64,000 bases of DNA from Pseudomonadota bacterium (GTDB lineage: Bacteria; Pseudomonadota; Gammaproteobacteria; Burkholderiales; Rhodocyclaceae). The stretch's first letter is position 1; every line of letters begins with the position of its first letter. Location: NCBI GenBank assembly GCA_963205435.1, contig CAUJIV010000099.1, positions 1-64,000 on the forward strand, given 5' to 3'. Shown here piece after piece: positions 5,017 through 11,018 of this stretch. Under the pieces are notes generated by a model. That model did no database searches and was not told the origin of the DNA. It worked only from the letters and a program-made list of their open reading frames with translations. A program made the translations under genes and the position numbers.

Positions 5017-6216
5017 TCATTCGCTGCGCAGCGCCTCGAGCGGATCGAGGCCGGCGGCGCGGCGCGCCGGGGCGACGCCGGCGGCGAGGCCGACGGCGAC
5101 GGCGACCAGCTCGGCCAGCGCGGCGTAGCGCCACGGCGTGTGCACCGGCAGCGCCGGGAAGGCCAGGCCGAGCAGCGCGGCGATGCCCCAGCCGAGCAGC
5201 AGGCCGGCGGCGCCGCCGAGGGCCGAGAGCAGCGCCGCCTCGCCGAGGAACAGCAGCAGGATGCTGCGCCGCGTCGCGCCGATGGCGCGCAGCAGGCCGA
5301 TCTCCGAGGTGCGCTCGGCGACGCCGATGGTGAGGATGGTGAGGATGCCGACGCCGCCCACCACCAGCGAGATGCCGCCGATGGCGGCCACGGCGAAGGT
5401 GACGGCGTCGAGCACGGTGCCGAACACCTCGAGCATCTTCTGCTGCGGCGTCAGGGTGAAGTCCTCGGCGCCGTGGCGGGCGACGAGGATGCGGCGCAGG
5501 CCCTCCTCGACCTCGGCCAGCGGCGCCGTCGGCTCGTAGGCGACATGGATCTCCATCAGCCCGTCGCGGTTGAACATGTCGAGGGCGCGCGCCACGGGGA
5601 TGAACACCGTGTCGTCCATGTCGAAGCCGAGGATCTGGCCTTTCGCTTCCATGACGCCGACGACGCGGTAGCGCTCGCCGCCGACGCGCAGGCGGGCGCC
5701 GAGCGGATTGTCGGCGCCGAACAGCTCCTCGGCCACCTTGGCGCCGAGCACGACGAAGGCGCGCGCGGCGCGCGGGTCGTCCGGCGGCAGGTAGTCGCCG
5801 ATGGCCACCCGCATCGACAGCGCGCGGGCGAAGTCAGGCCCGGTGCCGTAGAGGGTGACGCGGCGACTCCTGCCCGGCAGCGACACCTCGGCGTTGCCCT
5901 GCACCAGCGGATCGGCGACCTCTACGTGAGGCGCCTGCTTCAGGGCGAGGGCGTCCTCGATGGAAAGCGGCCGCGAGGTGTTCACCGCGCCGAGCGAGGC
6001 GCCGTGGGTCTGGATGCGGCCCGGCGAGACGCCGATCAGGTTGGTGCCGAACTGGGTGAATTCGGCGATGATGAAGCGGTGCAGGCCCTCGCCGATCGAG
6101 GTGAGCAGGATCACCGAGGCGATGCCCACGGCGATGCCGAGCGACGTCAGCAGCGTGCGCAGGCGGTGGGCGCGCAGCGCGGCGAGGGTGAAGGCGATGA
6201 AGTCTCGGGCGATCAT
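5017..6216 (-). CDS. ABC transporter permease (MacB/FtsX type)
   Basis: MIARDFIAFTLAALRAHRLRTLLTSLGIAVGIASVILLTSIGEG...RTSEIGLLRAIGATRRSILLLFLGEA. Confidence 0.92.
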   Translation of the reverse strand: MIARDFIAFTLAALRAHRLRTLLTSLGIAVGIASVILLTSIGEGLHRFIIAEFTQFGTNLIGVSPGRIQTHGASLGAVNTSRPLSIEDALALKQAPHVEVADPLVQGNAEVSLPGRSRRVTLYGTGPDFARALSMRVAIGDYLPPDDPRAARAFVVLGAKVAEELFGADNPLGARLRVGGERYRVVGVMEAKGQILGFDMDDTVFIPVARALDMFNRDGLMEIHVAYEPTAPLAEVEEGLRRILVARHGAEDFTLTPQQKMLEVFGTVLDAVTFAVAAIGGISLVVGGVGILTILTIGVAERTSEIGLLRAIGATRRSILLLFLGEAALLSALGGAAGLLLGWGIAALLGLAFPALPVHTPWRYAALAELVAVAVGLAAGVAPARRAAGLDPLEALRSE

Positions 6217-6266
6217 GGCTTGCCCTCTCCCCCGACCCCACTCCCGCGAGCGGGAGAGGGGAGCAA
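6175..6266. repeat. Direct repeat copy A (start of permease gene plus upstream palindrome)
   Basis: ~92 bp, imperfectly repeated at 6312-6403. Confidence 0.85.
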
Positions 6267-6311
6267 GTCAGCCGCGGGAGAGGGGAGCAAACCAGCCCCC
6301 TCGCCGCGCCG

Positions 6312-6403
6312 CAGCGCGGCGAGGGTGAAGGCGATGAGGTCGCGCGCGATCATGCTTTGCCCTCTCCCCCGACCCCTCTCCCGCAAGCGGGAGAGGGGAG
6401 CAA
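6312..6403. repeat. Direct repeat copy B; encodes a decoy MIARDLIAFTLAALR start
   Basis: Matches 6175-6266 with few mismatches, offset 137 bp. Confidence 0.85.
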
Positions 6404-6907
6404 ACCAGCCCCCTCGCCCCGCCGCCGCGCGGCGAGCAAATCAGCCCCCTCGCCCCGCTTGCGGGGAGAGGGCTGGGGAGAGGGGGAGGATTCGAGGGCA
6501 AGCCGGATTCTTTCCAGAACCCCTTCCATTTCCAGCATCACCTCGTTGTTCCAGAACCGCAGCACCGCATAGCCTTCGCTACGCAGCCAGTCGTCCCGCT
6601 CCGTGTCGTAGGCCGCCTGCTCCGCATGTTGTCCGCCATCGAGTTCGATGATCAGCTTTCGCTCGACGCAGACAAAATCGACGATGTAGCGCCCGAGCGG
6701 CTTCTGCCGCTTGAACTTCAAGTCCATGAAGCGGCGGGCGCGCAGGTTGTGCCAGAGCTTCTGCTCGGCGTCCGTCTGGTTGCTGCGGAGTTGTTTGGCG
6801 TTTTCGAGAAAGTCCCTCTCACCGCAAGCGGGGCGAGGGGGCGAACACCCCTCTCCCGCTCGCGGGAGAGGGGAAGAGGAAGGGGAAGAGGGCCGGTTCT
6901 TCTTCAT
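6350..6907 (-). CDS. DUF559 domain (Vsr-like) endonuclease; N- and C-termini encoded by palindromic repeats
   Basis: Core DFLENAKQLRSNQTDAEQKLWHNLRARRFMDLKFKRQKPLGRYIVDFVCVERKLIIELDGGQHAEQAAYDTERDDWLRSEGYAVLRFWNNEVM; ends translate as SPLPRAGEG/SPSPQPSPRKRGEG repeat peptide. Confidence 0.9.
   Translation of the reverse strand: MKKNRPSSPSSSPLPRAGEGCSPPRPACGERDFLENAKQLRSNQTDAEQKLWHNLRARRFMDLKFKRQKPLGRYIVDFVCVERKLIIELDGGQHAEQAAYDTERDDWLRSEGYAVLRFWNNEVMLEMEGVLERIRLALESSPSPQPSPRKRGEGADLLAARRRGEGAGLLPSPACGRGVGGEGKA
6446..6472. repeat. 27-bp inverted repeat, left arm flanking DUF559 core
   Basis: CCCCTCGCCCCGCTTGCGGGGAGAGGG; reverse complement of 6814-6840 with one mismatch. Confidence 0.9.
6814..6840. 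repeat. 27-bp inverted repeat, right arm flanking DUF559 core
   Basis: CCCTCTCACCGCAAGCGGGGCGAGGGG. Confidence 0.9.
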
Positions 6908-8112
6908 CGCTTCGACAGCGCCGCCACCGGATCGAGCGCCGCGGCGCGGCGCGCCGGCAGCACGGTGAACAGCACGGCGGTGAGAATGGCGGTGAGCGGG
7001 GCGGCGAGCAGCGCCCACCACGGCGCTGCGAAGGGCACGCCGGGCAGCGCCTGGCCGAGGGCGAGCTGGCCCAGCCTGCCCGCCGCCAGACCGCAGGCGG
7101 CGCCGCCCAGCGCCAGCAGCACGGCCTCGGTGAAGAAGGCGGCGCGGATGGTGGCGCCGGTGGCGCCGAGCGCCTTGAGCAGGCCGATCTCGCGACGGCG
7201 CTGGGTGACGGCGATCAGCATGACGTTCATGACGAGGATGCCGGCCACCGCCAGGCTGATGGCGGCGATGCCGCCGACCACCAGGGTCAGCGTGCGCAGG
7301 ATGCGGTCGAAGGTGGCCAGCACCGCGTCCTGGCTGATCACCGTGACGTCGCGCTCGCCCTCGTGGCGCAGGCGCAGGATTTCCTCGAGGTCCTCCCTGG
7401 CGGGGACGATCTGCTCGCGGCTCTTCGCCTCGACGAGGACGCGGAACAGCGCCTCGGTGTTGAACAGGGCCTGCGCCGCGGCGAGCGGGATGACGACGAT
7501 CTCGTCGGTGTTGAAGCCGAGCGACTGGCCCTGGCGCGCCAGCACGCCGACGATGCGGAAGCGGCGGTCGCCGATGCGCAGCCACTCGCCGAGCGCCGGG
7601 CGCGCGCCGAACAGCTCGGCCGCCACCGTCGCGCCGACGACGCACACCGGCTGGCCGTGGCGCGGGTCGCCGGACGGCAGGAACAGGCCTTGCGCCAGGT
7701 CCATCTGCCGCACCTGGATGAACTCGGCCGTGGTGCCGAGCACCGAGCTCTCGCGGCTGCGGCTGCCGACGCGGACGTCGCCGGCGCCGACGACCAGCGG
7801 GGCGACGCGCAGCACCGCCGGGCTGCGCTTCAGCGCCAGGGCGTCGTCGAGGGTGAGATCGCGCGGCGTCTTGCCGAGCAGCACGCCGGGCATGGCGCCG
7901 GTGGTTTCCGAACGGCCGGGCAGGATGATGACCAGATTGGTGCCGAGCGAACCGAACTGGTTGACCACGTACAGCCGCGCACCCTCGCCGATGGCACTGA
8001 CGGCGACGACGGCGGCGACGCCGATGCCCATGGCGAGCAGGATCAGCGCGGTGCGGCTGCGGTTGCCGTCGAGCACCTGCCAGGCGAAGCGGAGCAGGTC
8101 GGCGAACCTCAT
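6904..8112 (-). CDS. ABC transporter permease (MacB/FtsX type)
   Basis: MRFADLLRFAWQVLDGNRSRTALILLAMGIGVAAVVAVSAIGEG...RRREIGLLKALGATGATIRAAFFTEA. Confidence 0.92.
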   Translation of the reverse strand: MRFADLLRFAWQVLDGNRSRTALILLAMGIGVAAVVAVSAIGEGARLYVVNQFGSLGTNLVIILPGRSETTGAMPGVLLGKTPRDLTLDDALALKRSPAVLRVAPLVVGAGDVRVGSRSRESSVLGTTAEFIQVRQMDLAQGLFLPSGDPRHGQPVCVVGATVAAELFGARPALGEWLRIGDRRFRIVGVLARQGQSLGFNTDEIVVIPLAAAQALFNTEALFRVLVEAKSREQIVPAREDLEEILRLRHEGERDVTVISQDAVLATFDRILRTLTLVVGGIAAISLAVAGILVMNVMLIAVTQRRREIGLLKALGATGATIRAAFFTEAVLLALGGAACGLAAGRLGQLALGQALPGVPFAAPWWALLAAPLTAILTAVLFTVLPARRAAALDPVAALSKR

Positions 8113-8149
8113 TGGGCAGAAACCGCTTTCAGCACGGCGTTCGCAGAGG

Positions 8150-8207
8150 CACGGAGAACACCGAGAAATTCGATGCAGGAATCTCCGTGACCTCCGTGTT
8201 CTCCGTG
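8150..8207. repeat. Inverted repeat (CACGGAGAACACCGAG / CTCCGTGTTCTCCGTG) between ABC permease and ATPase genes
   Basis: Arms 8150-8165 and 8192-8207, one mismatch. Confidence 0.75.
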
Positions 8208-10933: not shown

Positions 10934-10950
10934 GGGGGGTGAGTAGTGGG

Positions 10951-11018
10951 CAGTTGTCAGTTTTCAGCTGTCAGTTATCAGCGGACAGTTATCAGTTGTC
11001 AGTTATCAGTAGGCAGTG
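10951..11018. repeat. Short degenerate tandem repeat (CAGTTATCAGT / CAGTTGTCAGT units)
   Basis: cagttgtcagttttcagctgtcagttatcagcggacagttatcagttgtcagttatcagtaggcag read directly. Confidence 0.85.

Follow-up and report, generated by a model that had tools for sequence, protein, structure and literature searches.

In a 64,000-nt stretch of a contig from a bacterium of the family Rhodocyclaceae (hereafter the window), a gene for a DUF559 nuclease lies between the two permease genes of an ABC export operon, with palindromic repeats around its core. The locus raised the question of what ties this nuclease to these repeats. A sequence-only reading had compared the arrangement with REP-associated transposases, and the analogy holds at the level of anatomy and of co-specificity between nuclease and repeat. 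Two further identities were absent from that reading: the repeat is of the box C type known from E. coli, and the nuclease gene has a family member in E. coli, ycjD.

The nuclease and the repeat mosaic in the window

The nuclease open reading frame (6350..6907, minus strand) encodes 185 aa from an ATG at 6907, which overlaps the stop codon of the upstream permease (ATGA). The frame continues through the repeats, and both protein ends are translated from repeat sequence, as had been claimed. The placement between two ABC export permeases also stood: genes of the MacB/FtsX type, with MacB_PCD/FtsX domain matches and both on the minus strand, lie upstream (6904..8112) and downstream (5017..6216) of the insertion. 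The DUF559 core was recovered as a PF04480 match (6494..6808, minus strand), the window protein scoring 152.3-153.6 bits against a curated cut-off of 20.6. Six residues of this core (E18, D47, E58, D60, Q63 and H64 in alignment numbering) are all present in the window protein and invariant across 46 DUF559 sequences; they form a putative active site, with a catalytic role assumed from the superfamily. For a predicted fold model of the window protein (mean pLDDT 88.8), the nearest structures in Foldseek were NGO0050 (3hrl, E 9.2e-10, 44% identity), I-Bth0305I (3r3p, E 7.6e-5) and Vsr (1vsr, E 8.6e-3), and the nuclease is predicted to have a Vsr-like PD-(D/E)XK fold. YcjD, the DUF559 protein of E. 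coli, was assigned to PD-(D/E)XK and related to Vsr earlier (PMC1189080). The nuclease gave no match to the HUH Y1 tyrosine transposase domain; only DUF559 and a sub-threshold REase_MTES_1575 matched it.

More than one role is probable for the family. In Caulobacter, the DUF559 protein VsrA has been proposed as a mismatch-repair endonuclease able to cause DNA breaks (PMC12907096). On the cyanobacterial plasmids L259, L260 and L262, DUF559 genes have methyltransferase genes of the DUF1156 or BREX-1 PglX kind as direct or close neighbours, which suggests that some members belong to defence loci and therefore that the family is not uniform. A defence system was rejected for the window locus, for which the one PADLOC match, to DpdF, was weak and partial (17 bits).

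Around the core, inverted repeats of 29 nt at 6444-6472 and 6814-6842 are 97% complementary and 341 nt apart, each containing a palindrome. With up to 3 mismatches, CCCTCTCCCGCNNGCGGGAGAGGG occurred 3 times in the window, compared with 0.01 expected from shuffles. Thus the inverted pair described earlier exists; however, the picture of a unit bounded by a single clean pair of 27-mers did not hold, since the surroundings are a mosaic of repeats and the complete repeat is longer, a hairpin plus a third purine tract. The window cluster holds at least one complete unit, just downstream of the nuclease gene (6446..6488, plus strand), in which the hairpin at 6446-6472 is followed by a gene-facing third purine tract at 6473-6488; the other units are degenerate. 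The inner upstream hairpin (6816..6841) has a mismatched arm and has lost its third tract, which is retained in the intact repeat at the same site in the sister copy L159. Further out, an upstream unit (6848..6891, plus strand) consists of a perfect hairpin at 6848-6873 and then a purine-rich tract. The downstream mosaic contains two units on the minus strand, one (6360..6398) with a pyrimidine tract at 6360-6371 preceding a hairpin at 6373-6398, the other (6223..6261) with a pyrimidine tract and a hairpin at 6236-6261, as well as a variant palindrome, CCCTCGCCGCGCCGCAGCGCGGCGAGGG, at 6298..6325.

A 137-bp tandem duplication (6202..6410) takes in a repeat unit and the first codons of permease 2; its copies at 6202-6273 and 6339-6410 lie 137 bp apart and are 89% alike over 72 nt. 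A comparable partial duplication, of the 3' end of ycjD, is found downstream of ycjD in E. coli K-12. Other repeat-like stretches in the window are located at 8120-8200, with ACGGAGAACACCGAG-type sequence, and at 10939-11010, where an open reading frame reads QLSVFSCQLSADSYQLSVISRQ.

Linkage of DUF559 genes to triplex-type repeats

Extracted from about 100 DUF559 loci, the typical unit consists of a Y arm, a short loop, an R arm, a few nucleotides and a second purine tract, R'. This is the architecture of E. coli box C, also called the PIT element or intrastrand triplex motif (TM), and the sequence is nearly the same (CCCTCGCCCCTCTGGGGAGAGGGTTAGGGTGAGGGG). Family-wide, the second purine tract matched the mirrored stem at 8/9 or better in 94 of 105 units. 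Agreement between R' and the mirrored stem was 93.5% within a unit and 83.6% when R' was borrowed from units with other stems, with the related units in this comparison not independent of each other; the better fit within a unit is as expected if triplex formation matters. Box C, recognised in E. coli in the 1990s, occurs in more than 260 genomes, forms triplexes in vitro and marks unstable loci in E. coli, while its origin and spread are unexplained (PMC4666352). The same authors noted that mobility functions had never been found nearby, and described no associated protein (PMC4666352).

A generic unit finder, not bound to one sequence, was used to quantify how often such units accompany DUF559 genes, with the unit rate more than 1 kb away as background. 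Triplex-type units lay within 250 bp of 116 out of 125 distinct DUF559 loci spread over several phyla, on both sides in 81 of them, where 4.9 loci were expected; this is an enrichment of about 24-fold over the local rate. The link between DUF559 and the palindromes that had been proposed from the window alone is supported. Eighty of the loci came from genome contigs picked by similarity to the window protein, and distant DUF559 members may not be linked. The statistics take related genomes as independent unless clustered; after clustering at 70% protein identity, 47 of 52 clusters were flanked. Unit density reached 5.7/kb within 100 bp of DUF559 genes versus 0-0.12/kb beyond 300 bp. By contrast, control genes in the same host family were almost never flanked (ParE 1/26, Vsr 0/29, Y1_Tnp, the Y1 transposase/RAYT domain, 0/23; in total 1/78). 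The linkage between DUF559 genes and the repeat is therefore specific.

In most clusters, the nearest units pointed inward towards the gene (per cluster, 34 vs 6 upstream and 39 vs 3 downstream), and in 83 of 104 loci the reading frame continued through the downstream unit. Flanked DUF559 genes were also present in Deinococcus, Synechocystis, Sphingomonas, Azospirillum brasilense and Neisseria. The Deinococcus proteolyticus and Synechocystis copies carried outward instead of inward units, and the Klebsiella gene had a unit on one side only, 89 bp away. The finder detected no unit within 250 bp of 9 of the 125 loci. Among 12 plasmid and phage DUF559 loci, a unit lay within 350 bp in seven and none was found by the generic finder in five; phage hits, three in number, were weak. 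In E. coli, box C sometimes occurs as inverted pairs (PMC4666352), and of the five such K-12 pairs tabulated in that paper four are inward. Repeat pairs standing alone, at a distance from the gene, were of mixed orientation (8 outward, mostly 8-12 bp; 6 inward, 26-44 bp; 7 direct) and are therefore not used as evidence.

Several individual loci showed additional structure. In Neisseria gonorrhoeae (L177, 2983-3678), an inverted pair of triplex-type units is repeated three times in tandem with a period of 281 bp downstream of the DUF559 gene. In D. proteolyticus (L258, about 2500-2788), the inverted repeat reaches 15 bp past the triplex unit (GGGCCAGCGTTGCTG / CAGCAACGCTGGCCC), and this extension is possibly the true end of the element. 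At L072 (8001-8303) the DUF559 frame has one internal stop codon and is apparently a decaying copy.

Nuclease clade, repeat type and mobility

The type of repeat follows the clade of the nuclease. We labelled the repeats in four broad sequence types and placed the labels on a tree of 126 DUF559 proteins, where they required 37 changes compared with 65 after shuffling. Mantel correlations between nuclease and repeat were -0.54 downstream and -0.33 upstream, and none of 2000 permutations was as low. The clearest case was clade B, made up of 15 type-B loci and 3 unlabelled ones. Among 150 genomes belonging to one family, the exact type-B stem was present in 17 of the 18 that have a clade-B nuclease (median 8 copies, maximum 265) but in only 16 of the 132 without one (median 0), with a p value of 5e-18, or 3e-14 after subtraction of the two local copies. 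It was absent from 21 of the 23 genomes having only non-B nucleases. Two genomes, G044 and G111, carried at least 10 type-B copies each, with no clade-B nuclease found in the sampled assembly.

A full-length DUF559 match was present in 41 of the 150 genomes. The window genome (85% complete) has a single PF04480 match, and its relatives carry one to three divergent full-length copies, with the exception of fragments in the fragmented assembly G084. Nuclease copies of one genome may have different repeat types, as in G010 (L048 vs L181) and G112 (L018 vs L183); such differences among two or three nucleases within a genome argue against simple homogenisation by the host. Palindrome counts were higher in genomes with a core DUF559 (median 8 vs 1, p 3e-10), and 11 of 109 genomes without one had at least 8 palindromes. 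Overall, nuclease genes number one or a few in a typical genome and lie between inward units, and dispersed repeats of matching type number from a few to hundreds.

The permease junction is polymorphic. In G000, G155, G010 and G150, of the same genus, 503-688 bp with a nuclease separate the permeases, whereas in G154, G157 and G073, also of this genus, the junction is empty and the permease genes overlap directly (ATGATC). Empty-site operons, which had been named as a check on mobility, thus exist, and the gene is not carried vertically by all orthologous operons. Because the outgroups are also empty and the sisters G150 and G154 differ, insertion is the likely origin of the element at this junction, with later loss or repeated gain. 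An ATGA repeat flanks the inserted element and also an unrelated 131-bp repeat at the same junction; since both overlapping reading frames also need ATGA, it is not an unambiguous sign of target-site duplication. The unrelated repeat, an inverted pair with CGTCATTCCCGC-type ends, was found in G121 and G151 (L158 and L163), where 131 bp lie between the permeases, and also at L169. CGTC-type repeats occur separately at this junction in G121 and G151; the junction is an insertion hotspot common to two repeat families.

E. coli has a DUF559 gene of its own, ycjD, which lies between sapF and fabI. In K-12 the last ycjD codons fall within a repeat, and the space between ycjD and fabI contains a full box C, listed as copy 9 for K-12 in PMC4666352. 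The gene was present in about 3,360 of 5,426 E. coli genomes. In strains lacking ycjD the site is reported to hold the eef efflux operon (PMC12817139), and this was so in the one ycjD-negative strain that we inspected. With one K-12 box C sequence as the query in a spread sample of strains, further box C-like places had a median of 18 in the 37 strains with ycjD and of 5 in the 21 without it. The presence of ycjD therefore goes with more box C, an association that is suggestive only, being confounded with phylogroup and reflecting few phylogroup-level events. At alx-sstT, K-12 (L271) has an inverted box C pair, and CFT073 (L273) has a single box C and is 75 bp shorter, as if by deletion between matching CCCTCTCC tracts.

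A probable two-component element and rival explanations

The anatomy, the enrichment, the orientation of the units, the co-specificity of nuclease clade and repeat type and the polymorphism at the permease junction are all observed here, and we consider it probable that a DUF559 gene and its surrounding repeats constitute one two-component element, with the nuclease as the autonomous partner and the triplex-type repeat as the sequence that it recognises. We infer that the nuclease cuts the repeat, with a strand preference, and thereby copies or moves it. In such a mechanism the nuclease would recognise the hairpin or triplex of one strand, for example during lagging-strand synthesis, and would nick or cut at its foot; repair or annealing at another site would then leave a new copy of the repeat. 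The bracketing units would allow the gene to be mobilised or lost in one piece, which may have happened at the permease junction.

Part of this evidence would also suit a selfish, homing-like endonuclease that targets the repeat, whose gene inserts into or between existing repeats while the repeats themselves spread by slippage, recombination or other enzymes. The structural kinship with the catalytic domain of I-Bth0305I, the presence of the gene among repeats at nearly every locus, and the persistence of repeats without a nuclease in some genomes are in line with that explanation. By itself, however, it does not explain why dispersed copy number and repeat type track the nuclease clade, or why the units on both sides consistently point inward, and we regard it as unlikely. 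A housekeeping enzyme that processes triplex or hairpin lesions, and needs or tolerates adjoining repeats without mobilising them, is an improbable alternative. The patchy distribution (full-length matches in 41 of 150 family genomes), the several divergent copies per genome with different repeat types, and the physical bracketing would be unusual for such an enzyme, even though the predicted Vsr-like fold, the repair function proposed for VsrA (PMC12907096) and the instability of box C loci in E. coli (PMC4666352) would agree with it. Far less credible is a role of the repeats as ordinary terminators of transcription or regulatory hairpins, with linkage to DUF559 by coincidence of intergenic placement. 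Their hairpin form fits this view, as does the presumption that 100 of them serve as terminators in Enterobacter sp. 638 (PMC2869309); nevertheless, control genes in the genomes surveyed here lack flanking units in all but one case (1/78), which contradicts this explanation and led us to reject it, 83 of 104 loci have a reading frame that passes through the downstream unit, and PIT elements showed neither terminator nor promoter activity (as cited in PMC4666352).

The best supported description of the two-component element is a RAYT/REP-like partnership with an unrelated nuclease, not a member of RAYT/REP. It shares with REP/REPIN-RAYT a single- or low-copy nuclease gene, bracketing inverted palindromic units, dispersed non-autonomous copies and a lineage-specific repeat type. 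It differs in that RAYT is an HUH Y1 tyrosine transposase (TnpA-REP) and DUF559 belongs to the unrelated PD-(D/E)XK Vsr-like superfamily, in that a third purine tract is part of the DUF559 repeat, while no GTAG/CGTC tag was seen by eye in the listed units, and in that Y1-transposase genes of the same host family lack triplex-type units (0/23). Published box C/PIT/TM motifs (Hoyne 2000 as cited; Holder 2015, PMC4666352) have the same architecture and nearly the same sequence, but no associated protein was described for them, whereas here DUF559/ycjD genes are linked to the motif. The predicted fold of the nuclease resembles Vsr and the EDxHD homing endonuclease I-Bth0305I; however, Vsr genes in the same host family are not flanked by the repeats (0/29), and the DUF559 gene is placed between complete permease genes, not inside an intron. 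NGO0050 from Neisseria gonorrhoeae (PDB 3hrl) is DUF559-like with a solved structure, and the gonococcal locus L177 is also flanked by triplex-type units, but the protein was deposited as a putative endonuclease-like protein and no link to a repeat was found for it. Compared with classical insertion sequences, which have terminal inverted repeats and a target-site duplication, the locus has inverted units and a flanking ATGA that coding constraint would equally produce; multiple near-identical gene copies per genome are not seen here (one copy in the window genome). In the open-licence literature we found no report linking DUF559 or ycjD to box C or intrastrand triplexes, although one may exist elsewhere.

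We lean towards a broader conclusion, that this is a new class of mobile repeat system in which a Vsr-like PD-(D/E)XK nuclease recognises an intrastrand triplex or hairpin, propagates the repeat across several phyla (Pseudomonadota, Cyanobacteriota, Deinococcota and others) and is the source of E. coli box C/PIT. If true, it would be a second, evolutionarily independent answer to the problem that RAYTs solve, and possibly a natural enzyme for DNA triplexes. DUF559 gains a concrete hypothesis for its cellular role, and ycjD, a gene of the commonest laboratory strain, is now a candidate partner of box C, which makes the idea directly testable.
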